DNA from: Muribaculaceae bacterium
GTDB lineage: Bacteria > Bacteroidota > Bacteroidia > Bacteroidales > Muribaculaceae
Length of the DNA stretch: 40,655 nucleotides
NCBI GenBank assembly: GCA_029061225.1
Contig: JAIDSM010000016.1
Coordinates: 1-40,655 of the forward strand
Direction: 5' to 3'
The notes below the pieces were generated by a model, which saw only the letters and a list, made by a program, of their open reading frames with translations, was not told the origin of the DNA and made no database searches. A program made the position numbers and the translations under genes. Shown in pieces: positions 1 to 20,190 of the stretch; the first letter of the stretch is position 1; each line of letters opens with the position of its first letter.

Positions 1-201
1 AACTCCCGCTTCTGGGATATCCGCCGCTGGAAACTCGACCTCAACGAGACCGTCAAGGGTATCGAATGGCATGCCGCCGGCACATACGAGATCTTCGACG
101 TCGAGAAGCGCGATTACGAGGATTATATGATCTATCCCCCGATCCCTCAGTCTGAGATCCTTAAATTCAGCAATCTCCAGCAGAACAACGGCTGGCATTA
201 A
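1..201 (+). CDS. SusD/RagB-family outer-membrane lipoprotein, C-terminal end (partial)
   Basis: Reading frame 1 is open from the first base to TAA at 199-201 and encodes the last 66 residues of a protein whose 5' part lies outside the window. The stretch FWDIRRWKLDLNE and the late YPPIPQSEI segment are typical of the C-terminal part of SusD-like glycan-binding lipoproteins, which cap a SusC porin on the cell surface. The C-terminal NLQQNNGW ending is also usual for this family. The next gene starts 24 bp later on the same strand, so it is probably co-transcribed with the SusE-position lipoprotein that follows. The ligand cannot be read from this fragment, but the neighbours point to xylan. 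The family call is confident; the upstream SusC is assumed, not seen. Confidence 0.85.
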   Translation, partial: NSRFWDIRRWKLDLNETVKGIEWHAAGTYEIFDVEKRDYEDYMIYPPIPQSEILKFSNLQQNNGWH

Positions 202-225
202 TCCCGCAATAATCTGATCAATCTT

Positions 226-1260
226 ATGAAACGTAAATTTATATTTCCCGCATCCCTGGCTGCCCTGGCGCTTCTCACTGCCTGCCATAACGGAGAGAAT
301 GAATTCTCCGATTTCGACTATCAGACAGTGTACTTTGCCAATCAGTACGGTATGCGTACGGTTGAGCTCGGCACAGATGAGTTTACCGACCTGACTCCCG
401 ACAATAACCATGACGTCTACATCAAGGCCGCATGGGGTGGAGGTTACACCAACAGAAAGAATGTCGTGATTGACTTTGTAGTCGATCCGGCTCTCGTAGA
501 CGGTTTCTACTTCAAGGATTCCGACCAGCTTGTAGAGGTAATGCCGGAAGACTACTATACTATTGATGACAACAAGATAACGATTCCTTCCGGACAGATC
601 GGCGGCGGAGTCAGGGTGCATCTCACCGACAAGTTCTTCGCCGACAGGAAGTCGGTCGGAAACTGCTATGTGATTCCGGTGCGCATGACCGATGTGGCCG
701 GAGCCGACAGGATCCTGACAGGAACAGCTACGGAGGAGAATCCGGTTCTGACAAATGACGCTCACTGGTCGGTGCAACCTAAGAATTTCATTCTGTACGG
801 TGTGAAGTTTGTCAATCCCTGGCATGGCCAGTACCTCCGTAGGGGTGTTGACAATGCAGTTGTCGACGGTCAGTCCTCTATACTCGTACGCCACAGTCAG
901 TATGTGGAGAATGATGAGGTAGTAGATCTCACGACTTCCGCATTCAAGGAAGATGTGCTTCCCATAAAAGTTAAGGATGCCCAGGGCGGCGACCATACCA
1001 TCAATGTTGTCCTTACTTTTGCTGATGACAACTCCTGCACGCTCTCATCCGCTACCGAAGGCGCTTCAGTGTCCGGTTCCGGTAAGTTCGTGACCAAGGG
1101 TGAGAAGCAGAGCCTCGGCGGCAAGGACCGCGATGCCATCTATCTTGACTACACCCTGGAGATGCCTGCAAGCAATATGAAGTTTGAGTCGAAGGATACT
1201 CTCGTGCTCCGCACTCGCAATGTCTATGGTTCTCAGGCATTCAACATTGAAAGGAAATAA
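226..1260 (+). CDS. DUF1735/DUF4361-type surface glycan-binding lipoprotein (SusE position)
   Basis: This 344-residue protein has a lipoprotein signal ending LLTAC with the lipid-attachment cysteine at residue 20, so it is predicted to sit in the outer membrane. The segment around residues 30-50 (DYQTVYFANQYGMRTVELG) matches the start of the DUF1735 beta-sandwich domain found in BT_3987-like proteins. The later part (about 190-344) resembles the DUF4361-like C-terminal sandwich. Such proteins occur next to susD and are thought to be surface glycan-binding proteins; no catalytic motif is visible. It lies 24 bp after susD and 18 bp before the GH10-like lipoprotein, consistent with one transcript. 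Family assignment is from remembered motif style; ligand is inferred from context only. Confidence 0.75.
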   Translation: MKRKFIFPASLAALALLTACHNGENEFSDFDYQTVYFANQYGMRTVELGTDEFTDLTPDNNHDVYIKAAWGGGYTNRKNVVIDFVVDPALVDGFYFKDSDQLVEVMPEDYYTIDDNKITIPSGQIGGGVRVHLTDKFFADRKSVGNCYVIPVRMTDVAGADRILTGTATEENPVLTNDAHWSVQPKNFILYGVKFVNPWHGQYLRRGVDNAVVDGQSSILVRHSQYVENDEVVDLTTSAFKEDVLPIKVKDAQGGDHTINVVLTFADDNSCTLSSATEGASVSGSGKFVTKGEKQSLGGKDRDAIYLDYTLEMPASNMKFESKDTLVLRTRNVYGSQAFNIERK

Positions 1261-1278
1261 CCCTCAAAATTTGTAAGT

Positions 1279-2919
1279 ATGAAAAAATCGTTTATTTACA
1301 CTCTGCCCGCACTCGCCTTGGCAATGGCTTCTTGTGCCCATGGCTATGAGGGTGATTTCAAGATGGACAAGCCCGAGAGCGTGGAGCTCGATGAGCAGAT
1401 CGCTGCCTATGATGTGCTCTCGGAGTATTCCTCTAAAGCCGGAGTAACTTTGGGTGTGGCCGTGGATCCCGCTGCGTTTGCTACTCAGGGACTTGCCTAC
1501 AGTATAGTCAAGACCAACTTCGGTGAGGTTGAGAGCGCGGTAAGCATCACTCCCTCTGCGTTGAAGAATGAGGAGAATGTCTATGATTTCTCTCCCCTTG
1601 AGAATCTTGTGGAGACAGCGGATAAGGCCGGTGTCAAGGTCTTCGGACCGGCTCTGTGCACCGATGCCAATCTTCCTGCCTTTTACTTGAACTCTTTGCT
1701 CGATGACGTGGTGATTCCTTATGAGCCTTGGAATGAGCAGATCCTCATGTGTGATTTTGAAAAGGACGAGATAGGAAAAGCTTATGCATCTCAGAAGAAA
1801 GCTGTCGGTAGCGTCGATGTAAAGGTCATGGAGGATCCTCTCGGCCAGCAGGGAAAGGTGCTTGGTGGTACAAAGCTGACTATGGACGTTCCACTGGTTG
1901 AGATTACTCTTCCAGAAGGTTCTACTCTCGCCGATGTCTCTCGAGTGACATTAAAGTGCCTGTTGCTTGACGGTACTCCCACATCTGCAAGAATTCAGAT
2001 TGAGTCTTCCGGTCTCAACGACAAGACCAACCCATATTCCACTAAGGGTAAATGGCAGGAGTTTATCTTTGATATGTCCAACATAAAGTTCAAGGAGGCT
2101 GAACTTAAGCAAAACAAGATTAAGCTTGCCGTTGGTGGCTATGGTTCAGGTGTAAGCTGCTGTATTGATGACATCACGATCCGTCTTGAGCATCCCACCG
2201 GTGACGACACAGTGATCGTTAAGACCCCCGAGGAGAAGACTCAGATTGTCAATGAGCAGCTTTACAAGTGGGTAGACGGTATCACTGACATTTGTGCAGC
2301 TTCCGTGAAGGATTACATCATCTTCGACCAGCCTCTTGAATCCGCAAATTCAAAATTTGTCTGGAGCGACTACCTTGGTGAGAAATACGTAGCTGAAGTG
2401 CAGAAGGCAGTCATTGCCAAAGCGGGATCTGACGCTAAATTCTATGTAAGCCAGAACCTCATGGTAAGCGATGCCATGGCTGCTGAGGTCGCTGCCCTCA
2501 AGGCTGAGATTCAGAAGCTCGAAAATAGCGGTGTGAAAGTCGACGGTGTCAATATCGTCCTCTCTACTTCATACAGCTTCGATGCAGCAGAGCAGGCGGT
2601 CGTCAATGCAAATACTGTTGCGGCACTGAAAAGTCTTGCCTCGTTTGGCAAGCCCGTAAGACTTTCTTCACTCAAGGTAAATGTCATCAACGAAAATGGC
2701 GGACAGGCAAATCCGGCAAACATGTCGGTTGAGCAGCGTAAGGCAGTGGGTGAGTATTACAATCTCATCATAAGTACATTCCTTGCAGAACTCGGCAATA
2801 ATGCTAAGTCCATCTCGTTCTCTGCTATTCAAGATACTGCTACCGATGTAGCTCCCTGGCAGCAGAACGGCAACCGCAGCTTCGTCTACGAAGGCATCGT
2901 CAAAGGCCTCTCTAAATAA
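1279..2919 (+). CDS. GH10-fold lipoprotein with replaced catalytic residues; probable xylan-binding pseudo-enzyme
   Basis: The 546-residue protein has a lipobox (MASC, Cys19). Residues about 50-150 follow the start of a GH10 xylanase barrel: NVYDFSPLENLVETADKAG corresponds to the family's YDF..ADALVDFAKKNG region. Residues about 152-310 are an inserted beta-sandwich of CBM4/22 type, ending CCIDDITIRLE. The barrel resumes near 318: WSDYLGEKYVAEVQKAV matches the helix after the acid/base strand. At the catalytic positions the family WHSQ motif is CTDA (127-130). The acid/base Asn-Glu is Asp350-Gln351. The nucleophile of the ITELD strand aligns with Ser464 in RLSSLKV. Thus both glutamates appear lost. 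In SusE/SGBP position this suggests a binding role. The alignment was made by eye from memory of the family; an annotation tool may well call it endo-1,4-beta-xylanase. Confidence 0.72.
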   Translation: MKKSFIYTLPALALAMASCAHGYEGDFKMDKPESVELDEQIAAYDVLSEYSSKAGVTLGVAVDPAAFATQGLAYSIVKTNFGEVESAVSITPSALKNEENVYDFSPLENLVETADKAGVKVFGPALCTDANLPAFYLNSLLDDVVIPYEPWNEQILMCDFEKDEIGKAYASQKKAVGSVDVKVMEDPLGQQGKVLGGTKLTMDVPLVEITLPEGSTLADVSRVTLKCLLLDGTPTSARIQIESSGLNDKTNPYSTKGKWQEFIFDMSNIKFKEAELKQNKIKLAVGGYGSGVSCCIDDITIRLEHPTGDDTVIVKTPEEKTQIVNEQLYKWVDGITDICAASVKDYIIFDQPLESANSKFVWSDYLGEKYVAEVQKAVIAKAGSDAKFYVSQNLMVSDAMAAEVAALKAEIQKLENSGVKVDGVNIVLSTSYSFDAAEQAVVNANTVAALKSLASFGKPVRLSSLKVNVINENGGQANPANMSVEQRKAVGEYYNLIISTFLAELGNNAKSISFSAIQDTATDVAPWQQNGNRSFVYEGIVKGLSK

Positions 2920-2929
2920 GTTAGGGTAG

Positions 2930-2950
2930 GGACGCACGGCTCGTGCGTCC
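2930..2950. repeat. Short dispersed palindrome, copy 1
   Basis: Nine-base arms GGACGCACG (2930-2938) and CGTGCGTCC (2942-2950) flank a GCT loop, 10 bp after the GH10-like stop. The same palindrome with TAGGGACGCACGG context recurs at 5742-5762 and 14336-14356 and, degenerate, at 36425-36445. It could form an mRNA 3'-end hairpin but has no strong T-run. Confidence 0.8.
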
Positions 2951-3034: not shown

Positions 3035-4480
3035 ATGACATTTCATTCTCTGAAATCACTGTCAGCCCTCGCGCTGGCCGGCATGTTTGCTGTCAATGCA
3101 TATGCCGAGACTCTTTTCGAAGAGTTGGTAATCGATTTCACTCAGAAAGAAGTTGGCTTCAAGCTCAACTCTTACTGGAGTGGTCCTAACGACAACATGC
3201 AGGTTGTTGAAACAGAAGAAGGCAACCTTCTTTTCATCAATGGTGTGACTGTTGGTGAGGATGGAACTCCGGCCGTCAATGAAGCCGGCTATCCCTGCTG
3301 GAACACCATGACTCGCTACGAGAATCTGGCACTTCCCAAAGGCTTCAACTTCTCCAACATTCAGCTGATTGAGCTTGAGTATAAGCCTACTCAGCCTGAC
3401 AATGTACCCTTTGCTATTCAGCTGAAGCAGACCACAGATCCTCTTTACTATGAAGGAGACATCGTCGTAAACGAATGGAACACTCTGGTGTTCGACCCGA
3501 CTGCGTTTACCACAGGTGAAGGTTCCGATGTGTATACAGGCACTCCTTCTGTTCTTGATTTCTGTATGGGTGCCAATGGCTCTTCTAACTACTACATCAA
3601 GAGTATCACTTTCTATCTCGAAAAAGAGGTGACTCAGCGTGAGAAAGACGAGGCAGCTCTCGACAAGTCAACAGCGGCTTTCATTGAGTTCAACTTTGAC
3701 AACTGGGAGGTTTCCGGTGAAGGTGCTGATGGATACTTCTCTCCGTATCTTGGATCAAACGGTGGCTCATTTAACCGTCCTGACATGATCATTGACAAGG
3801 GTCCTGAAGGTTATAACAACAATTGTGCTCACGTTATCTATTCCGGTTGGACTCCTATCTTCATCACAGAGCCTGTGATTGTACCCGAAGGATACACAGC
3901 TGATGATCTTCGTCTTGTAGAATATGATATCTATGAGACTGATATTCCCGGTGAGGATTACACTAATGGTAATTCTTCAGATGCAAGAAACGGTGCTCCT
4001 CTCATCCGTATTAAAGATGTATATCCCTGGGGATGGCATCCGGTTGGTGACGGTACTTCTGCAGGTAACGCTCAGCTTCCCTCCGTCAACGAATGGCATC
4101 ACATAGAGTTCCGTCCTTCTGCTTTCGAATGGAAAGAACGTGACTTCAAGGAAAATGTTGTTGATGAAAATGGTGAACCCGTTCTTGACGACAATGGTGA
4201 GAATGTACAGAAAGACACCCATTGGGATGTTGATAAGGTACAGCAGGAATTCAACAAATTTACTTCTTTCTATATCTCAATCGGCTTCTTCCCCTGCAAC
4301 TGCCAGACTTATGTTGACAATGTAAAACTCTGGTTCCAGAAAGGTGGCGAAGACACAGCTGTTGAAGGTATCCAGGCTGTCAAGGGCAACGGTATCATGT
4401 ACAACATCTACGGTCAGCCCGTAAATGAGAACTACCGTGGCATCGTTATCAAGGACGGTAAGAAGTTCATCAAGAAGTAA
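3035..4480 (+). CDS. Secreted two-domain beta-sandwich protein with C-terminal sorting-like tail, function unknown
   Basis: This 481-residue protein has a type I signal peptide (about 1-24, ending AYA) and no lipobox. Two tandem domains, roughly 25-200 and 213-440, each finish with a strand of the form YIKSITFYLEK or YVDNVKLWFQK. This resembles the last strand of CBM4/galactose-binding-like jelly rolls and the insert in the preceding GH10-like protein. Trp and Tyr are frequent (WSGPND, YPWGWHP), which would suit sugar stacking. No hydrolase motif is recognised. The last 27 residues (MYNIYGQPVNENYRG... to GKKFIKK) match the tails of four other proteins here and look like a type IX secretion C-terminal signal. 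A likely role is extracellular glycan binding within the xylan locus; this is inference from fold style and neighbours. Confidence 0.6.
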   Translation: MTFHSLKSLSALALAGMFAVNAYAETLFEELVIDFTQKEVGFKLNSYWSGPNDNMQVVETEEGNLLFINGVTVGEDGTPAVNEAGYPCWNTMTRYENLALPKGFNFSNIQLIELEYKPTQPDNVPFAIQLKQTTDPLYYEGDIVVNEWNTLVFDPTAFTTGEGSDVYTGTPSVLDFCMGANGSSNYYIKSITFYLEKEVTQREKDEAALDKSTAAFIEFNFDNWEVSGEGADGYFSPYLGSNGGSFNRPDMIIDKGPEGYNNNCAHVIYSGWTPIFITEPVIVPEGYTADDLRLVEYDIYETDIPGEDYTNGNSSDARNGAPLIRIKDVYPWGWHPVGDGTSAGNAQLPSVNEWHHIEFRPSAFEWKERDFKENVVDENGEPVLDDNGENVQKDTHWDVDKVQQEFNKFTSFYISIGFFPCNCQTYVDNVKLWFQKGGEDTAVEGIQAVKGNGIMYNIYGQPVNENYRGIVIKDGKKFIKK

Positions 4481-4522
4481 GATCGTTTCCCTTTGTAGGA
4501 AAATCTCGAACTGAATTGTAAT

Positions 4523-4555: not shown

Positions 4556-4598
4556 TGCAAATAATGTTTAACTATTTTTTATAACCCAAATTTAAATC

Positions 4599-5672
4599 AT
4601 GAAAAAGATTACACTTTTCTGCGCAGCTGTAGCTGCCGCCCTGGGCATGAACGCTCAGGACACAACACCGCTGACCATCGATATGTGGCATCAGTGGGAG
4701 GGTATCACTGCTGAGGACACTTTCTGGGGTGAAAACGTAAAGATTGTGGAGAACCCCACCGAAGCACTGGTAGAGAATTACGGAAAGGATAGCGATTTTG
4801 TAATCGGAAATCCCGCTTGCAATGGTAATTGCTATGCTGATGTGACTGAATTCAGTGGCGTTGAAGGAAAAGGCTTTTCAGGAAATGGAAAGGTTCGTTT
4901 CTACTTCAACCGTGAAGATATGCAGGGTCCCGGTAAAGAGTGTGTCGTTGATATTGCTGAAGATGGCACATTCAAATTTGATTTTTCCGACGTACCCGGA
5001 AACCCCAAATTCCTTCATCTCAATTTCGTGAAATTCCATTGGGGTGTAGAAGGAAATATTGAATATATCAATCTGCTACCCAAGAAAGGTGATGAGCCTG
5101 TGGTTCCTGTCGATCCCAATGCTATTACCGGTGCATGGTTCCATGAGTGGAATGGTTATGGAGCTGACGCTACTATTGTAACTGAGAACGTAGAAGTTGA
5201 TGACCTGATCGGTAAAGAAGTAGGTGGTGGAACTACAGTCCTTGGCACTGCAAGTGTATGGGGTGAAATTTACGCAGATCTGACTAATTATGCTGGTATC
5301 GAAGCTGAAGGCACCCCCGGAGCTGTAATAAGATTGCTTTTCAATCGCCCTACCCATGATCAGGGTATCACGGAATTTTATGTAGAATTCAATAAAGAGG
5401 GTAAATTAAAGTTTGATTTTACAGAAGTAAAGGATGGAGATGTTCCTGCATCATTCATTCATCTTAACGCAGTAAAAATCAACTGGGGATTGCCCGAAGG
5501 CATGACTTCTTGCAAGATTAGCAAATTTAACGCCGTTCCCAAAGGAACTTCAAGCGTAAACGCTATCGAGAATGCTCAGCCTACAGTGATTTACAACATC
5601 TACGGTCAGCGTGTTGACGAAAGCTATCGCGGCATCGTCATCAAGAACGGCAAGAAATTCATCCAGAAATAA
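4599..5672 (+). CDS. Secreted protein with internal domain duplication and sorting-like tail, function unknown
   Basis: The 357-residue product has a signal peptide ending near residue 20 (ALGMNAQ). Two homologous domains follow, roughly 22-165 and 174-315. Both contain a W/F-H-x-W element (MWHQWEG and WFHEWNG), a CYADVTEF/IYADLTNY strand, a VRFYFNRED/IRLLFNRPT strand, a TFKFDFSDV/KLKFDFTEV strand and a final FVKFHWG/AVKINWG strand. This is clear evidence of an internal duplication. The last residues IYNIYGQRVDESYRG...GKKFIQK are almost identical to the tail of the preceding protein. No catalytic signature was recognised. The repeated aromatic pairs and the locus suggest a secreted carbohydrate-binding protein, but the family is not recognised and the function is unproven. 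A terminator follows 30 bp after the stop. Confidence 0.6.
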   Translation: MKKITLFCAAVAAALGMNAQDTTPLTIDMWHQWEGITAEDTFWGENVKIVENPTEALVENYGKDSDFVIGNPACNGNCYADVTEFSGVEGKGFSGNGKVRFYFNREDMQGPGKECVVDIAEDGTFKFDFSDVPGNPKFLHLNFVKFHWGVEGNIEYINLLPKKGDEPVVPVDPNAITGAWFHEWNGYGADATIVTENVEVDDLIGKEVGGGTTVLGTASVWGEIYADLTNYAGIEAEGTPGAVIRLLFNRPTHDQGITEFYVEFNKEGKLKFDFTEVKDGDVPASFIHLNAVKINWGLPEGMTSCKISKFNAVPKGTSSVNAIENAQPTVIYNIYGQRVDESYRGIVIKNGKKFIQK

Positions 5673-5735: not shown

Positions 5736-5741
5736 AAGTAG

Positions 5742-6115: not shown

Positions 6116-9100
6116 CTACTTCTTCATGACCTTGCGAACCGTACCGTCCGCCTCAATCACGATATTAAGTCCTGATTGCATCGAGCTGACCTTTATACCC
6201 TGCGGAGTATAGATACCTGCCGGAACATTGCTATGTCCGTCATAAATGCCTTCTACGGCCGAATCACCGGTATGGTTAAGCTTGCATTCAAGCAGCAGGA
6301 ACTCATGGTAACCACCCACGGTCGACTTGTCGTTGAAACGGATGATGTAGTTGCCCTTTTCAGGAACAGTGAACTTGAATTCATGCTGCTCCTCAGCCGA
6401 TACATCTGCAGAGGTATTGCCGTTCACGTCAACTGTCGTAGTAAATACTTCAGACTGCGCTACTTCGGTATTTTTATCTGCGTTACGTATCGTCACATTA
6501 TACTTCGGGCTTAGCTTCCATGCCGCCATCGCGAATGTAAGCTTGTATTCGCCCGGTTCGAGATTCAGTCTGTAGTTGTTTATGGCTCCATATTCTGCCC
6601 TGCTGTTTCTCCAGTAGAGTGCCTTCCCCTGATATCCCTTAAAGTCCTTCAGTGTCCTTGCTCCTGAAGAGAACGAATTGGGATACTGATGCACCTCGTT
6701 GTTCTCCTGTATGCAGCGCCATCCTTCCGGTATGCTGCCGTTGGCTGCATTGGTGAAGTCGAGTTTATAGATAGAAGTCGTATCGTAGAACACAGGAAGA
6801 ATCGTCACGTTGTCCTCAGGCATGATGAAGGATATTTCTCCTGAATCGTTGATTGCTATAGTCTTCGCCATTGTGTAGTAGACGGAATTCACTATGCGGA
6901 GTTCCTTCAGCGCATATCCTTCTTCAGCATTGACTTTCAGGGTCACTTTCTGACCTTCCGATGCCTCTGATACGTCGGCCGTCACGGTTCCGTTCTCTAC
7001 ATCCCTTATCGTCACGAGGAACTTTTCCTTCGGTGTTCCCTTAGGCATATAGATGATCTGGTCTATTGTCGGGCCTACTCCGGTCGTATTTGTGATTATG
7101 AAGGTATTTTCGCCGGCATTTAGTGATGCCTCGACCTTGACTTTCTTCCAGTCATTCTTCGGGGCTTTGTTTATGGTTATGTTTCTTGCCTCTCCATTGA
7201 CTGAAACTTCGATTTCAGCATCAGCAGATGTGTTGCAGTATCGTATGTAGATCTCATATTCTCCGGCTTCCCTGAGGGTAAGGTTATGGCGCAGAGTAGC
7301 CTTCTTGTTGGTGCCAAGTTCTACGAATCCCATACCGGAGAATTCCGAATAATCGGGAGCCCACCAGCCGGAGTGGGTAAGGGCCAGTTTCCCGATGCTT
7401 CTATAGTCCATATCCTCTGCCTCTATAATAATAGGACCTTTGAAAGGTTCCGGCTGTTTCGGAACTGATATTGTGTAGTCTGATGGTATGGCGTCCGTCA
7501 TGCCGCTACGATCTGCGTTTCCGCTGCAAGACACGGTGAGGTCCAAAGGCCCGAGATGGCTTACAGTAAGCGTGTAGCTCTTATCGGCCTCGTTATAATC
7601 ATCTTTAATATTGACTTCATAGGAAGCGTGCTGCTTAAGCTCATAAGATGGTTTTTCTTTCAGACCTTCCAAGCGAATTATGTCTTCCCTGATGGTGGTT
7701 GTATCGTTTCGGAAATTGTTAAGGTAGAAGTCGATGTGGTCATTATATTCGCGAATCACTCCGGAAGAAAGTACATCGTACTTAAGCTCAAGTGTCTCGC
7801 AAGTGTTGTATTTGAGAGGTATCCTTGCGGATGCAGATCTTTTGCCGCTTACGTTTGAATACGGAGTGTATGTGACGAGCTGATTACGGAAGCGGTTGAC
7901 ATAAAGGTCTCCTTCGGAAACCTCAGGATAGTACTTATTGAACTCCTCCACTTTCTTGTCTATAGTATTCCAGCGTGTCTTGCGCTCCGACTTGTTTACG
8001 AGAGAGGGAATCTGTTTTGCCAAAGGATCGTAAGCCTCAAGCATCACGGGAACTGTGCCGTAGCGGCCGGACTTCTTAAGGTAGAGGTAGTTGTCCATCC
8101 AGTATCCCTTGTTGCGGTTGAAGGGGTCATCCTGCTTGTAGAGTCCGTCGTAGAGGTTATCCCATGCGGCGTACTTGTCCTCGTCGTTTCCGCTCGTGAG
8201 ATCGTTGATGACGGCTACCTTTGTCTTCTCCACTACTTCCTGACGGGATGGAATATACATTGAGCCGTCGATGATCTTCCTGAACATATCGACCCAGATG
8301 GCGTCGAAATTGGGGAAGGTTGTCCATCTGCGTCTTAGATAGTTATCAACAAGAGTGGCACTGAGATTCTTGAAGTCCTCTGTCCATATCAGCTCCGGAC
8401 CGTCCCATACCGCTCCACCGTTGACGCAAGTCTGCTCCATTACGGTGCCGATACCCGCTGATCCGGGATAAGGCGCATTTTTTGTATCTCCGAAGTAATC
8501 TCCCAACGCTCCGTTCCATCCGCAGTTGTCGTAGCGTACGCCATAGTTGTTGGCGAGACCTGCGACGAACGGACCCCATGATACGCTCTCGTTATTATAG
8601 AAACAGCTGCTTGTGGTATACTTATAAAGCCAGAGTATAGCTTCCGGATGCTCCTGGCAGGCCTTGTGCAGATCTGCGTTGCGCTTCATCATGCCTAACG
8701 GATTGAGCGGATGGCTCCAGATGTTTCCGCAGAAACTTACCGTCAGGAAACCACCGTATTTATGCGACATCTCCACAAGCTTGGCGAAGAGGGCGATGCG
8801 TGATTCCTGTGTGCTGCTGCTCTTGTCGCCGGCCTCATCGAATCCCCAGAACTGCTCGGCATAGTTCCATCCGAGGAAGTTGGGATAAGTCTTGAAGAAA
8901 TACTCGAATGTCTCGAGGTCATCGTCCTGGATGTGGGTGTGGCCGCCGCTTGCAGGCTGGCAGGTAAACCACATGCCGTTGTGCTGACACACAGATGCCC
9001 AGGATTTGTAAGTACGCACTGCCGAGCGCGGCATGCGGTACATGTTGTCCTTGGTGTCGTAGCCGCAAGACAGTGACAGGTTCATGCAGACATAGGGCTT

Positions 9101-9265
9101 GATTTCCTCAGGAATCAGGTCGATGATCTTCTGAGGGTCTGCCGCGTTCCATACATCCACATGGACAAGCCAAAGCGGATGCTGGTTGTCGATGGGCCGT
9201 CGCTCCTGCGCCTTGAGCCCAAGGACAAATAGTGAAAGTAATAAGCAAAGTAATACTCGCCTCAT
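6116..9265 (-). CDS. GH98 endo-beta-glycanase with CBM6/35-like, InlB-like and C-terminal binding domains
   Basis: The opening PLWLVHVDVWNAADPQKIIDLIPEEIKPYV is the classic N-terminal segment of the GH98 catalytic domain. FLGWNYAEQFWG carries the likely acid Glu, and YDNCGWNG and GPELIW carry further conserved acids. GH98 enzymes are endo-beta-galactosidases or endo-xylanases; the surrounding side-chain enzymes favour xylan. Domains in order: GH98 about 25-600, a CBM6/35-like sandwich starting IIIEAEDMDY (about 625-755), an InlB/bacterial-repeat-like domain (FLVTIRDVENGTVTA...), a second sandwich (YKLDFTNAANGSIPEGW...) and a sorting-like tail ending KVMKK. I chose the ATG at 9265 (MRRVLLCLLLSLFVLGLKA signal peptide) over the TTG at 9289. 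It is the only minus-strand gene in the left PUL. The product is secreted; a surface location is inferred. Confidence 0.85.
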   Translation of the reverse strand: MRRVLLCLLLSLFVLGLKAQERRPIDNQHPLWLVHVDVWNAADPQKIIDLIPEEIKPYVCMNLSLSCGYDTKDNMYRMPRSAVRTYKSWASVCQHNGMWFTCQPASGGHTHIQDDDLETFEYFFKTYPNFLGWNYAEQFWGFDEAGDKSSSTQESRIALFAKLVEMSHKYGGFLTVSFCGNIWSHPLNPLGMMKRNADLHKACQEHPEAILWLYKYTTSSCFYNNESVSWGPFVAGLANNYGVRYDNCGWNGALGDYFGDTKNAPYPGSAGIGTVMEQTCVNGGAVWDGPELIWTEDFKNLSATLVDNYLRRRWTTFPNFDAIWVDMFRKIIDGSMYIPSRQEVVEKTKVAVINDLTSGNDEDKYAAWDNLYDGLYKQDDPFNRNKGYWMDNYLYLKKSGRYGTVPVMLEAYDPLAKQIPSLVNKSERKTRWNTIDKKVEEFNKYYPEVSEGDLYVNRFRNQLVTYTPYSNVSGKRSASARIPLKYNTCETLELKYDVLSSGVIREYNDHIDFYLNNFRNDTTTIREDIIRLEGLKEKPSYELKQHASYEVNIKDDYNEADKSYTLTVSHLGPLDLTVSCSGNADRSGMTDAIPSDYTISVPKQPEPFKGPIIIEAEDMDYRSIGKLALTHSGWWAPDYSEFSGMGFVELGTNKKATLRHNLTLREAGEYEIYIRYCNTSADAEIEVSVNGEARNITINKAPKNDWKKVKVEASLNAGENTFIITNTTGVGPTIDQIIYMPKGTPKEKFLVTIRDVENGTVTADVSEASEGQKVTLKVNAEEGYALKELRIVNSVYYTMAKTIAINDSGEISFIMPEDNVTILPVFYDTTSIYKLDFTNAANGSIPEGWRCIQENNEVHQYPNSFSSGARTLKDFKGYQGKALYWRNSRAEYGAINNYRLNLEPGEYKLTFAMAAWKLSPKYNVTIRNADKNTEVAQSEVFTTTVDVNGNTSADVSAEEQHEFKFTVPEKGNYIIRFNDKSTVGGYHEFLLLECKLNHTGDSAVEGIYDGHSNVPAGIYTPQGIKVSSMQSGLNIVIEADGTVRKVMKK

Positions 9266-9322
9266 AATGTAAATGATATTTATGAGCAAATGCTCGGTTA
9301 TAAATAATTCTGTATCTGGGTC

Positions 9323-11654: not shown

Positions 11655-11689
11655 CATGATCCTGCGTTCAGCTACCTTTTCTTAAGCTT

Positions 11690-11885: not shown

Positions 11886-11893
11886 TATATTTG
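11886..11893 (+). promoter_or_regulatory. Predicted GH31 promoter -7 element
   Basis: TATATTTG followed by CA is a near-ideal Bacteroidetes -7 element, 24 bp before the chosen ATG at 11918. Its presence also argues against translation starting at TTG 11891, which lies inside it. No clear -33 element. Confidence 0.6.
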
Positions 11894-11917
11894 CATTTTA
11901 TTAATTCAACTGCCATT

Positions 11918-14317
11918 ATGAAATTGAAAATTTCCATCGGATGTATGGCGCTTCTCATGGCCCTGTCCACCTTCGCAGCCGAAAAAGTGTATGTGAAGTA
12001 CTATACTCCTGAAATCGTGAGAATTGTAAAATCTCCCGACGGTAACCCCAATGGCGACCGTGAATCTCTCGTTGTCACCGCCAAGCCTCAGGATGTAAAG
12101 GTGACCGGAGTTATTGACGATGAAGTGACAGAATATAAAAGCTCTGCCCTCAAGGTGATGGTTGACAATAATACAGGTAGGGTCAGCTTTTATAAGCCCG
12201 ATGGGGAGCTTCTCGTTGCGGAAGGAAAACACGGCTTTACTCCCATTTCAGAAGGAATTGACAAAGGTGCCTATAAGGTTATGCAGAGCTTCGCCCTCGA
12301 AGCCGATGAGCCTATCTATGGAGTAGGAATGCTACAGAACGGCAAGATGTCGCAACGCGGCGAACACCGTCTCATGCAGCAATCTAACCTTGAGGACTTC
12401 GCCCACTTCTTCCAGAGCATAAAAGGTTACGGCATATATTGGGACAACTATTCCCCCACGGCACTCAACGATGACGGCACCCTTGAGCTTGAAAGCCAGG
12501 TCGGTGATCTCGTTGATTATTACTTCATGTATGGAGGCGACGCCGACGGTGTGATAGCGGATATACGCTGGCTTACAGGCTCGGTGCCCATGGTTCCCCT
12601 ATGGACTTACGGTTTCCACCAGAGCCGCGAACGCTACAAGACGCAGGACGAACTCCTTGAAGTAGTGGATAAGTACCGTAACCTCGGTATTCCTTTCGAC
12701 GGAATTATCCAGGACTGGCAGTATTGGGGCTCGAACTACACCTGGAACGCCATGGAATTTATCAACCCTGACTTCAACCGGGCCCAGGAAATGATCGACA
12801 AGGTGCATGACAACAATGCCCATATGAGCATTAGCATCTGGCAGAGCTTCGGCCCGCAGACGAAGCAGTATAAGGAACTGAAGGAAAAAGGACTTCTCTT
12901 CGATTTCGAGACATGGCCTGAATCAGGTCTCACGGAATGGCCTCCTCGCCGTGACTACCTGTCTGGTGTCCGCGTATATGATGCTTATAGCCCGGAGGCC
13001 CGTGATATCTATTGGAACCATCTCAAGCGTCTCCACTCTATGGGAATTGACGCATGGTGGATGGACTCTACCGATCCCGACCACATGCAGTATAAGGATT
13101 CCGATCTCGATCAGCCAAGTGCTCTCGGCAGTTACCGCTCGGTCCGTAATCTTTTCCCCTTCATGTGCGTAAGCGGTGTCGACAGCCATCAGCGTGCCGA
13201 CGATAAGCAGAAACGTCCTTTCATCCTTACACGCTCCTACTTCACCGGGCAGCAGCGCTTTGGATCTCAGTCCTGGAGTGGCGACGTCGGCAGTTCATGG
13301 GATTCCTTCCGCAAGCAAGTGCCCCTCGTCCTCAACCATACCCTTACGGGCAATCCTAACGTAAACACCGATATAGGCGGTTTCTTCTCAGGTAGCTATA
13401 ACAGAAACTATGATCCTACTTCAGGTTCGAAGAACCCACAGTTCCAGGAACTCTACACCCGCTGGATGCAGTTTGGTGCCTTCACTCCGATGATGCGCAG
13501 CCATGGCGCCGACACCTACCGCGAGATCTATTATTTCGGGAAGGAGGGTGAACCCGTCTATGACGCTCTCGTTGACGCTATTAAGTTGCGCTACCGTCTG
13601 ATGCCTTACATCTACAGCACCGCCCGCCGTGTCAGCGCTAACGACGACAGCTTCATGCGAGCCCTCTTCATGGATTTCAAGGATGACAAAAACACTTGGG
13701 ACAACGGACGCGAATTCATGTTCGGACGCAGTATCCTCGTGTGCCCCGTTCTCGATCCCCTTTATACTCAGGAGAAGGTCGTCAAGACCAATGAGATGAC
13801 AGGATGGGACAAACAGGATGCCAATCTTAATTCCGAAGGCTGGCAGGTGGTCGACTGGACCGCCAAGAAGGTTTATGACGTATATCTTCCGGCAGGCGCG
13901 GACTGGTATGACTTTTGGACCAATAAAAAGTATGACGGCGGACAGACTGTCAAGGCCGACGCTCCTCTCGCTTATTCCCCCCTCTATGTAAAGGCAGGAA
14001 GTATTCTTCCTCTCGCGGAGGATATGCAGTACACTTCCGAGAAACCATGGGACTATCTGACTCTCAATGTCTATCCCGGTGCAGACGCTGAATTTGTACT
14101 TTATGAAGATGAAGGTGACGGCTTCGGATATCAGGAAGGAAAGTTCTCCAAGATTCCGATGAACTGGAATGACAAAAAGCGCACCCTGACAATCGACGCA
14201 ACCAAAGGTAGCTTCGACGGCATGCTGAAGAACCGCACCTTCAACGTCGTTCTTCCCGACGGCCAGTCAAAGGAAATTTCATACTCGGGTAAGCGTACAT
14301 CCGTTTCATTCCATTGA
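11918..14317 (+). CDS. GH31 alpha-xylosidase-type glycoside hydrolase
   Basis: The product is 799 residues from the ATG at 11918, with a type I signal peptide (MKLKISIGCMALLMALSTFAA). An N-terminal beta-domain carries the EPIYGVGMLQNGKMSQRG loop. The TIM barrel contains IIQDWQYWG, the nucleophile motif DAWWMDSTDPD (Asp383) and the acid/base motif SWSGDVGSSW (Asp456), followed by the proximal and distal beta-domains common to GH31. The overall architecture and the WWMDSTDPD form resemble bacterial alpha-xylosidases. In this setting it would remove alpha-xylosyl decorations, such as xylose capping arabinose side chains, but alpha-glucosidase or alpha-galactosidase activity cannot be excluded. 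No lipobox and no sorting tail, so periplasmic location is likely. Its own promoter is predicted. Confidence 0.85.
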   Translation: MKLKISIGCMALLMALSTFAAEKVYVKYYTPEIVRIVKSPDGNPNGDRESLVVTAKPQDVKVTGVIDDEVTEYKSSALKVMVDNNTGRVSFYKPDGELLVAEGKHGFTPISEGIDKGAYKVMQSFALEADEPIYGVGMLQNGKMSQRGEHRLMQQSNLEDFAHFFQSIKGYGIYWDNYSPTALNDDGTLELESQVGDLVDYYFMYGGDADGVIADIRWLTGSVPMVPLWTYGFHQSRERYKTQDELLEVVDKYRNLGIPFDGIIQDWQYWGSNYTWNAMEFINPDFNRAQEMIDKVHDNNAHMSISIWQSFGPQTKQYKELKEKGLLFDFETWPESGLTEWPPRRDYLSGVRVYDAYSPEARDIYWNHLKRLHSMGIDAWWMDSTDPDHMQYKDSDLDQPSALGSYRSVRNLFPFMCVSGVDSHQRADDKQKRPFILTRSYFTGQQRFGSQSWSGDVGSSWDSFRKQVPLVLNHTLTGNPNVNTDIGGFFSGSYNRNYDPTSGSKNPQFQELYTRWMQFGAFTPMMRSHGADTYREIYYFGKEGEPVYDALVDAIKLRYRLMPYIYSTARRVSANDDSFMRALFMDFKDDKNTWDNGREFMFGRSILVCPVLDPLYTQEKVVKTNEMTGWDKQDANLNSEGWQVVDWTAKKVYDVYLPAGADWYDFWTNKKYDGGQTVKADAPLAYSPLYVKAGSILPLAEDMQYTSEKPWDYLTLNVYPGADAEFVLYEDEGDGFGYQEGKFSKIPMNWNDKKRTLTIDATKGSFDGMLKNRTFNVVLPDGQSKEISYSGKRTSVSFH

Positions 14318-14335
14318 TTTATATTTTATTTGTAG

Positions 14336-14356
14336 GGACGCACGGTTCGTGCGTCC
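14336..14356. repeat. Short dispersed palindrome, copy 3
   Basis: Arms GGACGCACG (14336-14344) and CGTGCGTCC (14348-14356) flank GTT. It fills much of the 60-bp gap between GH31 and GH97. Confidence 0.8.
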
Positions 14357-14377
14357 ACCATTTATTTATATAGCCTA

Positions 14378-16141
14378 ATGAAATTCAAAATAATTTTAAC
14401 CTCAGTCTGCTTGGCCTTTCCGTTTTTTCTTACCGCCGGAAATGCATCTAAAGGAAGATGCATTTCAGGTAGCTCAGATGATGGGGATCTTACTTTTTAT
14501 TATCAGTCTTCTGATGAAAAGGCTCCTGCCATTCCTTTGCTCAAATTTGAATTCGGCAAACTCGAGAGAATCGGTAACATGATACAGGGTGAGACTGACT
14601 ATAACATGGTGACAGGTAAAAGAAGCCATTGCCATAACAGTTTCTCCGGGTGGCAATATATTACTGCTACTGGTGATACCGTTTATGTAAGGTTATATGA
14701 TGACGGTTTCGCATGGAAAAAGAAAGGTTCATCCAAAATAGAACTCATCAACCCTCAACATACTTGGCTTCAAAACTGGACGGACTGTTATGAGGAATTT
14801 TTTCCGAAAGATCAGGTCCAGACGGAAGGGAAGCGTATAGGCTATCCAGCTCTCTTTGAATATAAGGATAGCATTTTCGGACTCCTTACCGAATCCGGTA
14901 TCACTTCCGACGAAGCCGGTGTCAGCATGTATGCCCTTGGTAATAATTGTTTCGAACTGAAACCCGACGGTCCGGAAGATGGGGGTTGGCAGACTTTCAT
15001 AGTCGGTGGCCTTTCCGATATCGTGGAGTCAACCCTCGTTACGGATATCGCTGCTCCGAATAGACTCGAAGATACCTCCTGGATAGAACCCGGAGTCGCC
15101 TCATGGGTATACTGGGCATACAACCACGGATCTGATGACTTCAACATAATAAAGAAATACATCGATCTTGCCTACGAGCTGAAACTTCCGTACATACTTA
15201 TAGATGCGGAATGGGATAGAATGAAAGATGGCAAGACTGTCGAGGATGCGGTAGAATATGCAATATTGCGAGATGTCAAGCCGATGATATGGTACAATTC
15301 TTCCATCGGCTGGGTCGACGGCGCGCCTACTCCGAAATACAGGCTGAATACTCCCGAAGATCTTGAGACGGAATTCGCATGGTGTGAGGAGATAGGTGTG
15401 AAGGGTGTCAAGATTGACTTCTTTTCGGGCGATACTAACCGCAACTGGAAGTTTATGGAAGAACTTCTCGAAGCGGGGGCACGTCATCACCTGCTCGTCA
15501 ACTTCCATGGCTCCCCGCTTCCCCGAGGCTGGCAGCGTACATATCCCAACTTCATAACCACAGAATCCGTATACGGCGCGGAGTGGTACAACAACCGGCC
15601 GGATATGACAACGAGGGCTGCATCCCACAACGCGACACTTCCCTTTACCCGCAATGTGATTGGCTCGATGGACTACACTCCCTGCGCCTTCACCGACTCG
15701 CAGCATCCTCATATCACTACCCATGCCCACGAACTGGCACTGACAGCTCTCTTTGAGTCCGGAATCCAGCATCTCGCCGACCGCCCCGAAAGTTTTCTCG
15801 CTCAGCCGCAGGAAGTGAAGGAATATCTCTCTAATCTTCCCGCTGCTTGGGACGATACCGTACTTCTTGGAGGTTATCCGGGCGAATTCGTAATCATGGC
15901 AAGAAAGAAAGACGGTAAATGGTGGATCTCAGCCATCAACGGAACTGACGCTCCTGTCACTCTTGAAGATATCGACTATGCGCGTCTTGGCCTCGACAAT
16001 TCAAATCTGGCTATCAGGTCCTTTGAGGACGCTGCTCCGGGCAGCGTCCAAAAATGGAAAATATCTGACTCATCCTCTTTGCCTTCGTCTTTCTCTCTTC
16101 TTCCTAGAGGAGGTATGGTAATGACCGTATCCCCTAAGTAA
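14378..16141 (+). CDS. GH97 retaining-type glycoside hydrolase, probable alpha-galactosidase
   Basis: The 587-residue protein begins with a signal peptide (FPFFLTAGNA). The N-terminal beta-super-sandwich includes GWQYITATGDTVYVRLYDDGFAW. The barrel has ILIDAEWDR, MIWYNSS and the motif GVKGVKIDFFSGD. Asp347 there corresponds to the nucleophile of the retaining GH97 branch (BT1871-type alpha-galactosidase or beta-L-arabinopyranosidase), which separates it from inverting SusB-type alpha-glucosidases. HGSPLPRGWQRTYPNF and TTESVYGAEW are further family blocks. It follows GH31 after 60 bp and precedes GH95, so joint action on galactosyl/xylosyl side chains is plausible. It has no lipobox or sorting tail and is probably periplasmic. 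The exact sugar specificity is an inference. Confidence 0.85.
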   Translation: MKFKIILTSVCLAFPFFLTAGNASKGRCISGSSDDGDLTFYYQSSDEKAPAIPLLKFEFGKLERIGNMIQGETDYNMVTGKRSHCHNSFSGWQYITATGDTVYVRLYDDGFAWKKKGSSKIELINPQHTWLQNWTDCYEEFFPKDQVQTEGKRIGYPALFEYKDSIFGLLTESGITSDEAGVSMYALGNNCFELKPDGPEDGGWQTFIVGGLSDIVESTLVTDIAAPNRLEDTSWIEPGVASWVYWAYNHGSDDFNIIKKYIDLAYELKLPYILIDAEWDRMKDGKTVEDAVEYAILRDVKPMIWYNSSIGWVDGAPTPKYRLNTPEDLETEFAWCEEIGVKGVKIDFFSGDTNRNWKFMEELLEAGARHHLLVNFHGSPLPRGWQRTYPNFITTESVYGAEWYNNRPDMTTRAASHNATLPFTRNVIGSMDYTPCAFTDSQHPHITTHAHELALTALFESGIQHLADRPESFLAQPQEVKEYLSNLPAAWDDTVLLGGYPGEFVIMARKKDGKWWISAINGTDAPVTLEDIDYARLGLDNSNLAIRSFEDAAPGSVQKWKISDSSSLPSSFSLLPRGGMVMTVSPK

Positions 16142-16193
16142 TAGAAGGGATGCTTCGCGTGCGTAAACGCGTGAGTGATAATACGCTGACAAC

Positions 16194-16275
16194 TCAGCTC
16201 GGAGAGCTGATATTATGCTAAAATCCAGGCTTCAGCCTGGAAAATGAAACAGATAATCAGTAGCCTCGGAGAGGC
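16194..16275. repeat. Cluster of three short hairpins
   Basis: Three palindromes lie in the 169-bp gap before GH95: TCAGCTC-GGA-GAGCTGA (16194-16210), CCAGGC-TTCA-GCCTGG (16225-16240) and GCCTC-GGA-GAGGC (16263-16275). The first and third share the CTCGGAGAG centre with different outer arms. This may be a mobile palindromic element or an mRNA-processing region upstream of GH95. Confidence 0.65.
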
Positions 16276-16310
16276 GCTTTATGATTTAGAATCAAACAAT
16301 TTTTATATAC

Positions 16311-18770
16311 ATGAAACTAAAATCAACAGTTCTATCATTTTTGATTGCACTCTCATCCTTGGTCGCAAATGCCGCTCAGGATCTCACTCTCTGGTATTCT
16401 GCACCTGCAGTGGCGTGGGTGGAAGCTCTTCCGATTGGTAACTCACGAATGGGTGCGATGATATTCGGAGGTGTCGATCGTGAAAGGATCCAGCTCAACG
16501 ACGAGACTTTCTGGGCCGGAAGTCCTCACAACAACAATAACCCGGAGGGTATCAAGCACCTGCAGGAAATAAGGCAGCTTATCTTCGACGGGAAGGAAAA
16601 GGAAGCAGAGCAGCTGATCAATCAGTATTACATGACTCCCCACCACGGCATGTCTTACCTTACCCTCGGCTCTCTGTACATTGACTTCAATCATACCGGC
16701 GACGCTACGGACTATCGGCGTCAGCTTGATATCGCGAATGCTGTGTCAGAGGTTGCATATAAGGTGGGTGATGTTTCATTCAAGCGCGAGACGATAGCAT
16801 CTCTTCCTGATGGCGTGATAATGATGAATATTTCTGCCGATAAGAGCAAGGCTCTTAATTTCTCTCTTGAATATGACACGCCCGAGGGTGGATCGGTCAA
16901 GGTAAACGGTAAAGGATTGGACGTTACTGTCCCCGGACGGGACCATGAAGGTATCCCTGCAGGACTCACTGCTAAATGTGGCATTCGCGTTAAGAGCAAC
17001 GGTAAGGTGTCAGCGAAAGACGGAAAGCTCGATGTCAAGGATGCTGACTATGCCGTAATATATATCGCTTCCGCTACCAACTATGTGAATTATCATGACA
17101 TAAGCGGCAATCCTGAAAAGACGGTCGACTCCATGTTGAAGAATGCCATGAAGCAGGATTTCAGCAAGTCTCTCGCGGCCCATACAGCAGCTTATAAGGA
17201 GCAGTTCGACAGGGTGTCGCTTACCCTTCCTTCTCTTGGCAGCTCCGATAAAGAGACTCACTTGCGCGTGGCCGACTTCAAGGATAACTATGACCCTTCT
17301 CTTCTCGCGCTCCTTTTTCAATATGGTCGCTATCTCCTGATTTCATCTTCTCAGCCCGGCGGACAGGCCGCCAACCTCCAGGGTGTATGGAATGAGTCGA
17401 ACCATGCTCCCTGGGACAGTAAGTACACCATCAATATAAATGCCGAGATGAACTATTGGCCGGCTGAGGTGACAAATCTTGCAGAGTGCCACGAGCCTCT
17501 TTTCGATCTCATTGAAGACCTGAGCCATACCGGGGCTGAAACAGCCAAGACTCTTTACGGAGCCGACGGATGGGTCGCTCATCACAACACCGACGCATGG
17601 CGCGTATGTGGTCCTGTGGATCAGGCGAGATACGGTATGTGGCCCAACGGCGGAGCATGGCTTGCCACTCACCTTTGGGATCATTATCTCTATACCGGCG
17701 ACAAGGAGTTCCTTAAGAAATACTATCCCGTCATCAAGGGTACCGCTGATTTCTATATGTCAGCGATGGTGGAGGATCCCCGCACCGGTTATCTGGTGAC
17801 CGCTCCTTCCATGTCACCTGAGCATGGTTATGGCAGCAGCTGGATCACTGCCGGATGTACTATGGACAATCAGATAGCTTTCGATGCCCTTAACAATACT
17901 TTGAGGTGCGCTGAGATCCTTGGCGAGGATGCCGAGTATATCGCACGTCTTCAGAATGCCATCTCAAGACTGCAGCCAATGAAGGTCGGCCGATACGGTC
18001 AGCTTCAGGAGTGGACCGTAGATGCCGATAATCCCAAAGACGATCACCGACATGTGTCGCATCTGTATGGACTCTACCCCTCAAACCAGATAACTCCCAA
18101 TTCTACACCTCATGCTTTTGCGGGCGCAAAGAACTCCCTTACGCAGCGTGGCGACAAGGCCACCGGATGGAGTATAGGATGGAAGCTCAATCTTTGGGCA
18201 AGACTCCTTGACGGAAATCATGCCGATAAGATTATCAATAATTTCGTCACTCTTCTTCCTGCCTCCCCTGGCATTGACTATTCCGGTGGCAACGACGGAA
18301 GGCTCTATCCCAATCTTTTCGACGCGCATCCACCGTTCCAGATCGACGGTAATTTCGGATTTACAGCCGGCATTGCCGAAATGCTGCTTCAAAGCCACGA
18401 CGGCGCAGTGCATCTTCTTCCGGCGATTCCTTCTTCATGGAGTGAAGGCTCTGTAAAAGGACTGAAGGCAAGAGGCAATTACACCGTGGATATGGAATGG
18501 AAAAACGGTCAGCTACTGGAGGCCGATATCCTTTCCAATATTGGAGGTACACTGAGGCTAAGATCATACGTCCCCCTTGAAGGCGAGGGCCTGATTGTGG
18601 CGGAAGGAAATACCCCTAACGCTCTGCTTACTCCGGTAAGACTGGCTGATGCTGAGGTAAGTGAAGAGACCATCGGAGAGCATCCGTTGCTTTTAAGGAC
18701 ATATGAGTATGATCTGGTGACGGCTCCCGGAGCGACCTATAAGGTCAGGAGAGCCGGAGCCTCCAGATAA
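16311..18770 (+). CDS. GH95 alpha-L-fucosidase / alpha-L-galactosidase
   Basis: The 819-residue protein has a signal peptide ending SSLVANA. The start [27 protein letters not shown] and [16 protein letters not shown] is diagnostic of GH95. The central (alpha/alpha)6 part contains [52 protein letters not shown] (candidate acid Glu) and [17 protein letters not shown] (candidate Asp activating the water). All the catalytic blocks I recall for the family are present. GH95 members cleave alpha-1,2-L-fucose, and xylan-locus members have been described as alpha-L-galactosidases; the second is the better fit here. It is likely periplasmic because lipobox and sorting tail are absent. A 60-bp gap with a tandem array separates it from GH43. 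Confidence 0.88.
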
Positions 18771-18779
18771 TGCCTTCCG

Positions 18780-18816
18780 CTCACACGCTCACACGCCCTA
18801 CGCATAACGCATAACG
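18780..18816. repeat. 7/8-nt tandem array ending each unit in ACG
   Basis: Units read CTCACACG twice (8 nt), then CCCTACG, CATAACG, CATAACG (7 nt). It fills the GH95-GH43 gap. Confidence 0.7.
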
Positions 18817-18830
18817 CAAAAAACAATATC

Positions 18831-20177
18831 ATGAACATAAACACAAAATTTACAAATCGAAGAATGTTGACGGCTCTTATTGGAGCTGTTGCATTCAGTG
18901 TAAACGCCCAGAATCCTATATCTCAGACTGAGTTTACGGCAGATCCGGCTCCTCTTGTGGTAGGGGATACGCTTTATCTTTATACCGGCCATGATGAATG
19001 GGAGGCTACTCCGAATCAATTCGTCATGAAGGATTATCTGTGCTTCACTACTACCGATATGGTCAACTGGACACATCATGCTCCGATTTTCAACATTTCC
19101 CTTTTCGGAGAAAATGAGAATGCCAATGCGTCGCAGATGGCTTACCGGAATGGTAAATATTATTTCTATCCGTCTACGAGCGGAGTGCCGGTTCTGGTTT
19201 CGGATTCTCCTTATGGTCCGTTTGTCAATCCTCTTGGTGGAAAGAAGCAGCTGACCTATGCCGAAGACACAAATTATAGCGGACATGGCTGGGAGGATAT
19301 AGATCCCACTGTATTTATCGATGATGACGGTCAGGCCTACCTCTATTGGGGCAACAACGCCCTCTACGCCGTAAAGCTTAATGAGGATATGATCAGCTAT
19401 GACGGTGATATACATGTGTTCGAAATCAAGGATAAGGACGCTTTCGGCCCGGACTACGAGGAAGCTCCGTGGCTGACTAAGCGAGGAGATAAATATTATC
19501 TTGCATATGCTTCTTTCTGCCCCGAGGCTACAGACTGGGCTTGGGCGGATTCTCCGCTCGGCCCTTGGAAATACGGTGGCCAGATCATGCGCGCTTTCGA
19601 GCATGGAGGAATGGGCAACCATACCGGTATGTGTGAATATAAGGGACAGTGGTATTTCTTCTATATGGATGAAGGCCTCCCTGAGGCTCATAGCCGCAGG
19701 CGCACCGCAAGTGTCGTTCCCTTTGATTTCAATGAAGACGGATCGATTCCCTATATCCACCATGACAAGCGCGGTGTCCTGAAGAGTGTCAATCCTCTTG
19801 ATCCTTATGTGCGTCAGCAAGGTGAGACTATTGCCTGGGAAGAAGGTATCGGAATAGGTTACGACAATATATATACTGTGTTTGTAAAGGATGTGGATCC
19901 CGGAGATTACATCAAGGTTCGTGAAGTCAATTTCGGCGATGGCGCAAAAAAATTTGAAGCACGTGTCCGTAAGGGCAAGCCGGGATCTAAGATTGAGGTT
20001 CGGCTTGACGCGCCTAACGGTGAGCTTCTTGGTGTTCTTGATGCAGCCTCGGGCAATGACTGGACTGACAGATCAATGAAAATAAAGAGTCGGGATGGTA
20101 TTCATGACCTTTATTTTGTGTTTGACGGCGATGGTTCCGATCTTCTTCAGTTTGATTCCTGGAAATTCGTGAAGTGA
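18831..20177 (+). CDS. GH43-family arabinosidase/xylosidase with C-terminal CBM6 (first tandem copy)
   Basis: The 448-residue protein has a signal peptide ending VNAQ. The five-bladed propeller shows the three GH43 acids: Asp38 in TADPAPLV (base), Asp158 in DIDPTVFIDDDG (pKa modulator) and Glu211 in YEEAPWL (acid). Residues about 325-448 form a CBM6-like sandwich: GETIAWEEGIGIGYDNIY, PGDYIKVREVNFG, and the closing FDSWKF. It is closely related to the next gene, about 90% identical through the central propeller by eye. Likely reactions are removal of alpha-L-arabinofuranose or beta-xylose from xylan-derived oligosaccharides; subfamily was not determined. It lies 13 bp before its paralogue, in an apparent GH43-GH43-GH127 operon. 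Probably periplasmic. Confidence 0.85.
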   Translation: MNINTKFTNRRMLTALIGAVAFSVNAQNPISQTEFTADPAPLVVGDTLYLYTGHDEWEATPNQFVMKDYLCFTTTDMVNWTHHAPIFNISLFGENENANASQMAYRNGKYYFYPSTSGVPVLVSDSPYGPFVNPLGGKKQLTYAEDTNYSGHGWEDIDPTVFIDDDGQAYLYWGNNALYAVKLNEDMISYDGDIHVFEIKDKDAFGPDYEEAPWLTKRGDKYYLAYASFCPEATDWAWADSPLGPWKYGGQIMRAFEHGGMGNHTGMCEYKGQWYFFYMDEGLPEAHSRRRTASVVPFDFNEDGSIPYIHHDKRGVLKSVNPLDPYVRQQGETIAWEEGIGIGYDNIYTVFVKDVDPGDYIKVREVNFGDGAKKFEARVRKGKPGSKIEVRLDAPNGELLGVLDAASGNDWTDRSMKIKSRDGIHDLYFVFDGDGSDLLQFDSWKFVK

Positions 20178-20190
20178 TTTATCCATAAAT

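Follow-up and report, generated by a model that had tools for sequence, protein, structure and literature searches.

The DNA analysed here, called the window throughout, is a stretch of 40,655 nucleotides from a Muribaculaceae bacterium. The genes and features that concern us are the following.

1..201, + strand: 3' part of a SusD-like gene that is truncated by the contig start, recognised by DNA homology to related loci
226..1260, + strand: DUF5627 / BT_3987-like_N lipoprotein (Pfam, 5.6e-46 and 9e-24), orthologue of BACOVA_03430 (PDB 3N91)
1279..2919, + strand: catalytically dead GH10-like lipoprotein of 546 aa (pseudo-GH10), the main finding
1279..1386, + strand: constant leader (codons 1-36, with the lipobox Cys19) of the pseudo-GH10 gene
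1720..2220, + strand: residues 148-314, a CBM-like beta-sandwich that interrupts the GH10 barrel
2329..2331, + strand: Gln351 codon, acid/base position (alignment to 1w32 and to 49 intact relatives)
2668..2670, + strand: Ser464 codon, nucleophile position (same alignments)
3035..4480, + strand: putative secreted protein of no family, in the segment differing between locus types
4599..5672, + strand: putative secreted protein of no family, its C-terminal end resembling that of the 3035..4480 product
6116..9289, - strand: GH98 enzyme (Pfam GH98M, 6.5e-51; 37.6% identical over 735 aa to its counterpart in the locus of B. ovatus)
11891..23927, + strand: GH31, GH97, GH95, two GH43-CBM6 and GH127 genes (Pfam)

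DNA homology of window positions 1-1387 to related loci spans the end of a 585-aa ORF, which in one of them (L012) matches SusD_RagB at 1.1e-47. The initial annotation had put the GH10-like gene where SusE/SGBP genes normally lie; its place in a SusC/SusD locus is supported, and the susD end upstream of the DUF5627 gene, the only part of susD in the window, agrees with this. The 226..1260 product aligns almost end to end with 3n91_A (E 7e-131) and is 57% identical to the B. ovatus gene. Neither putative secreted protein gave a significant match in Pfam or NCBIfam; homologues of the first occur near other pseudo-GH10 genes, and the 3' ends of both match the same related sequences. Read by eye, the two products have similar tails, YNIYGQ...YRGIVIK.GKKFI.K, which look like a sorting signal in their resemblance to type IX secretion tails. 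By analogy with B. ovatus, the GH98 enzyme is likely the backbone-cutting endo-xylanase of the locus and the genes at 11891..23927 likely encode side-chain enzymes, most as in PUL-XylL. Identity to the B. ovatus locus genes is 51% for GH31, 29% for GH97, 40-43% for GH43 and 57% for GH95, while no GH127 counterpart was found in the fetched stretch of the B. ovatus locus.

The 1279..2919 product matches the GH10 profile of Pfam with 44.9 bits against a curated cut-off of 22.1 and has the GH10 (beta/alpha)8 fold, the barrel being predicted whole, so the GH10 similarity first traced by eye holds both in a profile search and in the fold. The full structure model has a pTM of 0.70, therefore the placing of the insert relative to the barrel is uncertain. 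The insert had been called CBM4/22-like. Its fold is indeed CBM-like, but no CBM match was found by sequence and several CBM families are tied in Z, so CBM4/22 was rejected as a firm family name. Profile comparison of the insert with the 3035-4480 product, the 4599-5672 product and one intact GH10 found no relation. The lipoprotein signal proposed earlier is borne out by the lipobox (read by eye), whose Cys19 is invariant in 47/47 rows.

Our data show that the gene is maintained. The names of its close homologues (P0002, 97% identity) point to Muribaculaceae as the family of the organism, and length is 534-556 aa in 46 of the 48 homologues with at least 43% identity, the shorter two being P0044, marked partial, and P0045. 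The dN/dS of the window gene against four related loci is 0.05-0.10 (NG86), and 0.07-0.14 by YN00 for three of the four. Against L012, dN is 0.056 for the N-terminal barrel part, 0.068 for the insert and 0.081 for the C-terminal barrel part, with dS of 0.86, 1.23 and 1.38, respectively. The gene is under purifying selection, and a pseudogene reading was rejected on the dN/dS.

Both catalytic Glu are absent from the protein: Gln351 takes the acid/base and Ser464 the nucleophile position, just as the initial annotation had it. An alignment artefact was considered and rejected, since three alignments (with overlapping rows) and a PDB profile alignment to 1w32 concur. Lys91, His124, Trp128, His129, Gln427, His429 and Trp515 are lost as well, which confirms the earlier remark that the WHSQ and QSH substrate motifs are gone. 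We take the conserved active-site Lys, His, Trp, Gln and His to have subsite roles. For a wider comparison we used 12 columns (Lys91, His124, Trp128, His129, Asn350, Glu351, Gln427, His429, Glu464, Asp466, Trp515 and Trp527) chosen from those (nearly) invariant in intact relatives, so that the comparison is descriptive and not a test. All 12 residues are retained in 48 of the 49 insert-bearing relatives with both Glu and 11 in the remaining one, whereas among 88 relatives without both Glu, 44 retain one, 24 two, 16 three and 2 four, L141 retains six and P0055 seven; rows were sorted into intact and non-intact by positions 351 and 464 themselves. No protein falls between the intact ones (11-12 residues) and the dead ones (1-7). 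P0055, where the acid/base Glu and the Trp-His pair are still present, looks like an intermediate, judging by its residues. The window protein retains Trp527 only. Within its own branch Gln351 is found in 32/32 rows and position 464 is Ser, Val, Thr, Ala or Gly, so that change is tolerated at 464 and Gln351 is fixed. Pfam labels most such dead proteins GH10, so that they may be tallied as xylan degraders. Few are named by a source, mostly as 'hypothetical protein' and once as 'endo-1,4-beta-xylanase' (P0053). This member of the inactive clade is filed under Paenibacillus; both names look wrong, and G697, a genome of the window's family, carries a relative.

The genome of the window (G000) itself gave 8 GH10 matches in 6 genes, as split barrels yield two matches. 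It encodes an intact insert-bearing GH10 of 735 aa behind a second DUF5627 gene and another insert-bearing GH10 of 783 aa, each with 12/12 active-site residues, so the cell is not without an insert-bearing GH10 having an intact active site.

The initial annotation held that no GH10 case of a barrel turned binder is described, which is not borne out. BACOVA_03431 of B. ovatus PUL-XylL was reported to be surface-exposed, inactive on xylans and xylan-binding (Rogowski et al. 2015, PMC4491172), hence a pseudo-GH10 as xylan-binding SGBP is a known kind. The authors state that no other natural inactive GH10 was on record, liken the protein to GH18 lectins (as was done for the window protein) and report that the neighbour BACOVA_03430 (PDB 3N91) bound none of the xylans tested. 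PMC4855328 and PMC11610566 also treat the B. ovatus inactive GH10, and the latter suggests that GH10 genes of Phocaeicola may be binders too. In open PMC full text, a search for inactive GH10 beyond B. ovatus returned PMC12333352, a false match (GH107), and the sections of PMC8002723 covered do not contain the word 'inactive'.

We recognised the B. ovatus locus in genome G414 by the 100% match of the neighbour to 3N91. The next gene there codes for a GH10-like protein of 750 aa whose catalytic positions are occupied by Asn and Asp, and it falls together with the window pseudo-GH10 in one inactive clade (support 100/98); catalytic loss across a clade, which the initial annotation had proposed to look for by phylogeny, is thus what the tree gives. 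Both proteins are lipoproteins with an upstream 3N91-type neighbour in a SusC/SusD and GH98 locus, both have lost the two catalytic Glu, and both keep one of the 12 active-site residues. However, they are only about 26% identical, the window protein has one insert in 546 aa and BACOVA_03431 apparently two in 750 aa, and the catalytic positions hold Gln/Ser in one and Asn/Asp in the other. BACOVA_03431 also comes from another bacterial family, the window GH98 is on the opposite strand, and GH30 was not found within 11.2 kb from the window neighbour-gene start. Another likeness is to BACOVA_04390 and B. xylanisolvens BXY_29300, active surface xylanases whose GH10 barrel is interrupted by CBM-like modules (PMC4491172, PMC4855328). 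The intact relatives that we examined carry their insert at the same place as the window protein and likewise follow a DUF5627 gene, but their NE, SELD, WH and QMH motifs are intact. GH18-like SGBPs and chitin-binding lectins are similar in being a glycosidase barrel turned binder, though of other family and origin than GH10.

To see how widespread the arrangement is, we collected DUF5627 (3N91-kind) neighbours from 33 loci of named genomes, from 22/393 genomes of the order and from 34/119 genomes of the genus of L025; 94 were left after removal of 7 duplicates, near-copies being retained. A GH10-like gene of at least 500 aa comes next after 71 of the 94, and among the remaining 23 are contig ends, split genes and genes of other kinds. 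Of the 34 neighbours with 55% or more identity to 3N91, 29 have such a gene, with both Glu in 0/29, whereas neighbours below 55% (n = 60) have it in 42 cases, 38 with both Glu and 4 (L102, L039, L140, L141) not; the 55% cut was set after the table was seen, so the split is descriptive and not a test. L022, among the 29, is a fusion that aligns badly: its 1370-aa gene (11021-15133) has a pseudo-GH10-like start and a different C-terminal part with a weak CBM_35 match below cut-off. In L102 a second GH10-like gene of B. ovatus (species inferred; 6299-8053, - strand, 584 aa) has Cys and Asp for Glu. It follows a second gene of the DUF5627 type (54% to 3N91), and a GH115 gene is close by. In L043 (Flavobacterium, 11432-16375) a DUF5627 gene is followed by a GH98 homologue, and a GH10-like gene between them was not found.

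The tree was built from 70 of 139 rows, hand-picked for spread, with catalytic columns removed. The 140-row alignment excludes GH10-like genes below 500 aa (L023, L040, L105, L133, L142), six identical sequences, P0044 and P0045; L022, whose C-terminal half is unalignable, was left out of trees yet counted as non-intact in the census. The 70-row tree needs three changes of catalytic state, while a single loss for the 36 chosen inactive rows is neither shown nor rejected (p-AU 0.284), so that L140/L141 may or may not belong to the main clade. L140, L141, L039 and P0060 do not have both Glu and stand on the margin of the main clade or beyond it. L039 and P0060 group with intact P0065 (99/96), which makes at least two losses likely; given all four, catalysis was probably lost more than once.

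The dead proteins keep particular company. Counting over 11.2 kb from the neighbour-gene start, or less where the contig ends, we found that 24 of 28 inactive loci contain a homologue of GH98 or GH30; each enzyme occurs in 13 of them, and two loci have both. Neither occurs in 20 intact loci, which were chosen from 38 for long enough contig. Among the inactive loci with neither enzyme, L022 and L033 are genuine misses, while L012 and L016 span only 4.5-5 kb. It should be noted that the inactive loci are mostly of one clade, so the contrast does not represent 28 independent events. Inactive loci outside the 28 are L015 and L019 (contig ends after the neighbour), L040, L107, L108, L102, L140, L141 and L039; neither GH98 nor GH30 was found in L039 and L040, and in L102, where only GH98 was sought, no gene matches the window GH98. 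In the window's family, relatives at E <= 1e-30 are rare (5/198 genomes, the window's own included), and in 4/4 of the other genomes the pseudo-GH10 lies directly between the 3N91-type gene and GH98. Rogowski et al. counted GH98 in only five of 260 Bacteroidetes genomes, so the arrangement is commoner than they reported; they also described a second PUL-XylL group where one GH5_21 gene replaces GH30-GH98-GH115 (PMC4491172). Since dead GH10 goes with GH98 or GH30, the idea that capture and cutting are shared out between proteins can be tested outside B. ovatus too.

Taken together, the gene probably encodes a dead lipoprotein of the BACOVA_03431 type that holds decorated xylan at the surface. 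It would have originated, as a relative of BACOVA_03431, from insert-bearing surface GH10 xylanases of Bacteroidales through loss of the two catalytic carboxylates together with almost the whole -1/-2 subsite. Highly decorated xylan (glucuronoarabinoxylan) would be held at the cell surface by the barrel with its remodelled cleft, by the CBM-like insert or by the two together, its backbone would be cut there by the GH98 of the same locus, and the products would be imported by the SusC/SusD pair. Surface location and xylan binding of the window protein, transferred from BACOVA_03431, are probable; the ligand and the role of GH98 we infer from B. ovatus. Several points speak against this reading, namely the low identity to BACOVA_03431 and the differing number of inserts, the lost subsite residues, the uncertain placing of the insert, the failure of BACOVA_03430 to bind xylan, the absence of GH98/GH30 from L022, L033 and L039, and the relatedness of the counted loci.

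With the -1/-2 subsite residues gone, the barrel shows no obvious binding site, and it might be a mere spacer or a docking platform for SusCD or the 3N91-type lipoprotein, with glycan contact, if any, made by the insert alone or by other proteins. The dismantled cleft, the full-length GH10-like gene adjoining so many neighbours and the co-divergence of neighbour and GH10-like protein (Mantel r 0.54, 0/999 permutations as high) are in keeping with this. However, linked genes are expected to co-diverge anyway, loci with similar neighbours can have different bodies (see below), and BACOVA_03431, with a cleft equally dismantled, binds xylan, in the barrel or elsewhere (PMC4491172). We regard a pure spacer as less likely. 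It is far less probable that the pseudo-GH10 is still a hydrolase that uses new carboxylates in a different mechanism or for a different glycan. The barrel is predicted whole and is under purifying selection, and 42/88 non-intact rows have Glu at 351, but Glu at the nucleophile position occurs in 0/88 (rows being classed by 351/464), the window's own branch has Gln351 throughout, seven further active-site residues are lost, and BACOVA_03431 was inactive on xylans (PMC4491172). A decaying, functionless xylanase relic, which the loss of catalytic motifs might suggest, is scarcely credible in view of the low dN/dS, the conserved length and the invariant lipobox Cys.

A further aspect emerges when nine loci are compared, the window and eight titled Muribaculaceae or uncultured Porphyromonadaceae. 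They carry two types of pseudo-GH10, QS (window, L012, L014, L016, L036) and NN (L013, L017, L018, L020). Mean identity within versus between types (16 and 20 pairs; 12 and 16 for SusC and SusD, window excluded) is 86.5 versus 86.1 for SusC, 86.1 versus 85.8 for SusD, 80.9 versus 79.7 for the 3N91-type protein and 85.1 versus 82.2 for the leader (residues 1-36), whereas for the body it is 77.3 versus 25.9. The minus-strand GH98, present in five loci, differs moderately too (85.1 versus 74.7). Loci with a body only 24.5-28% identical to that of the window protein have leaders that match its own at 64-92%. At the DNA level, homology of the window to NN-type loci (75-81%) runs from base 1 and ends at 1387-1404 (codons 37-42); short matches aside, it resumes at 6117, in GH98, in L017 and L018 and at 9687-9702 in L020 and L013. 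Homology to QS-type L012, L014 and L036 continues to 4480-4660, with a short break in L012. Six close relatives of QS bodies (P0024, P0028, P0029, P0030, P0031, P0033) have another leader, and two GH98-linked bodies from the same family, L195 and L196, show 42-46% identity to the window body, with a homologue of the 3035-4480 gene close by.

By these comparisons the pseudo-GH10 gene is a mosaic, its leader and the upstream genes being common with NN-type loci and its body not. The simplest account, drawn from few loci, is that a body of an L195/L196-like lineage replaced an NN-type body by recombination within the leader. A wider proposal would be that a clade of pseudo-GH10 binders serves complex-xylan loci of Bacteroidales, with cutting passed to GH98/GH30, and that in the window's family bodies are swapped as a cassette behind a constant leader, with the breakpoint at about codons 37-42, thereby refitting one transport locus; ligand change or phage/immune escape would be the driver. 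We offer this tentatively and with some doubt. The two body types provide natural pairs that differ mainly in the capture protein and its next neighbours.

Finally, a 22-base palindrome, GGGACGCACGGCNCGTGCGTCC, recurs with 0-2 mismatches at window positions 2929-2950, 5741-5762, 14335-14356 and 36424-36445, a recurrence seen in 0/100 shuffles. Three copies are intergenic and the fourth lies in the first codons of ORF 33526-36534.
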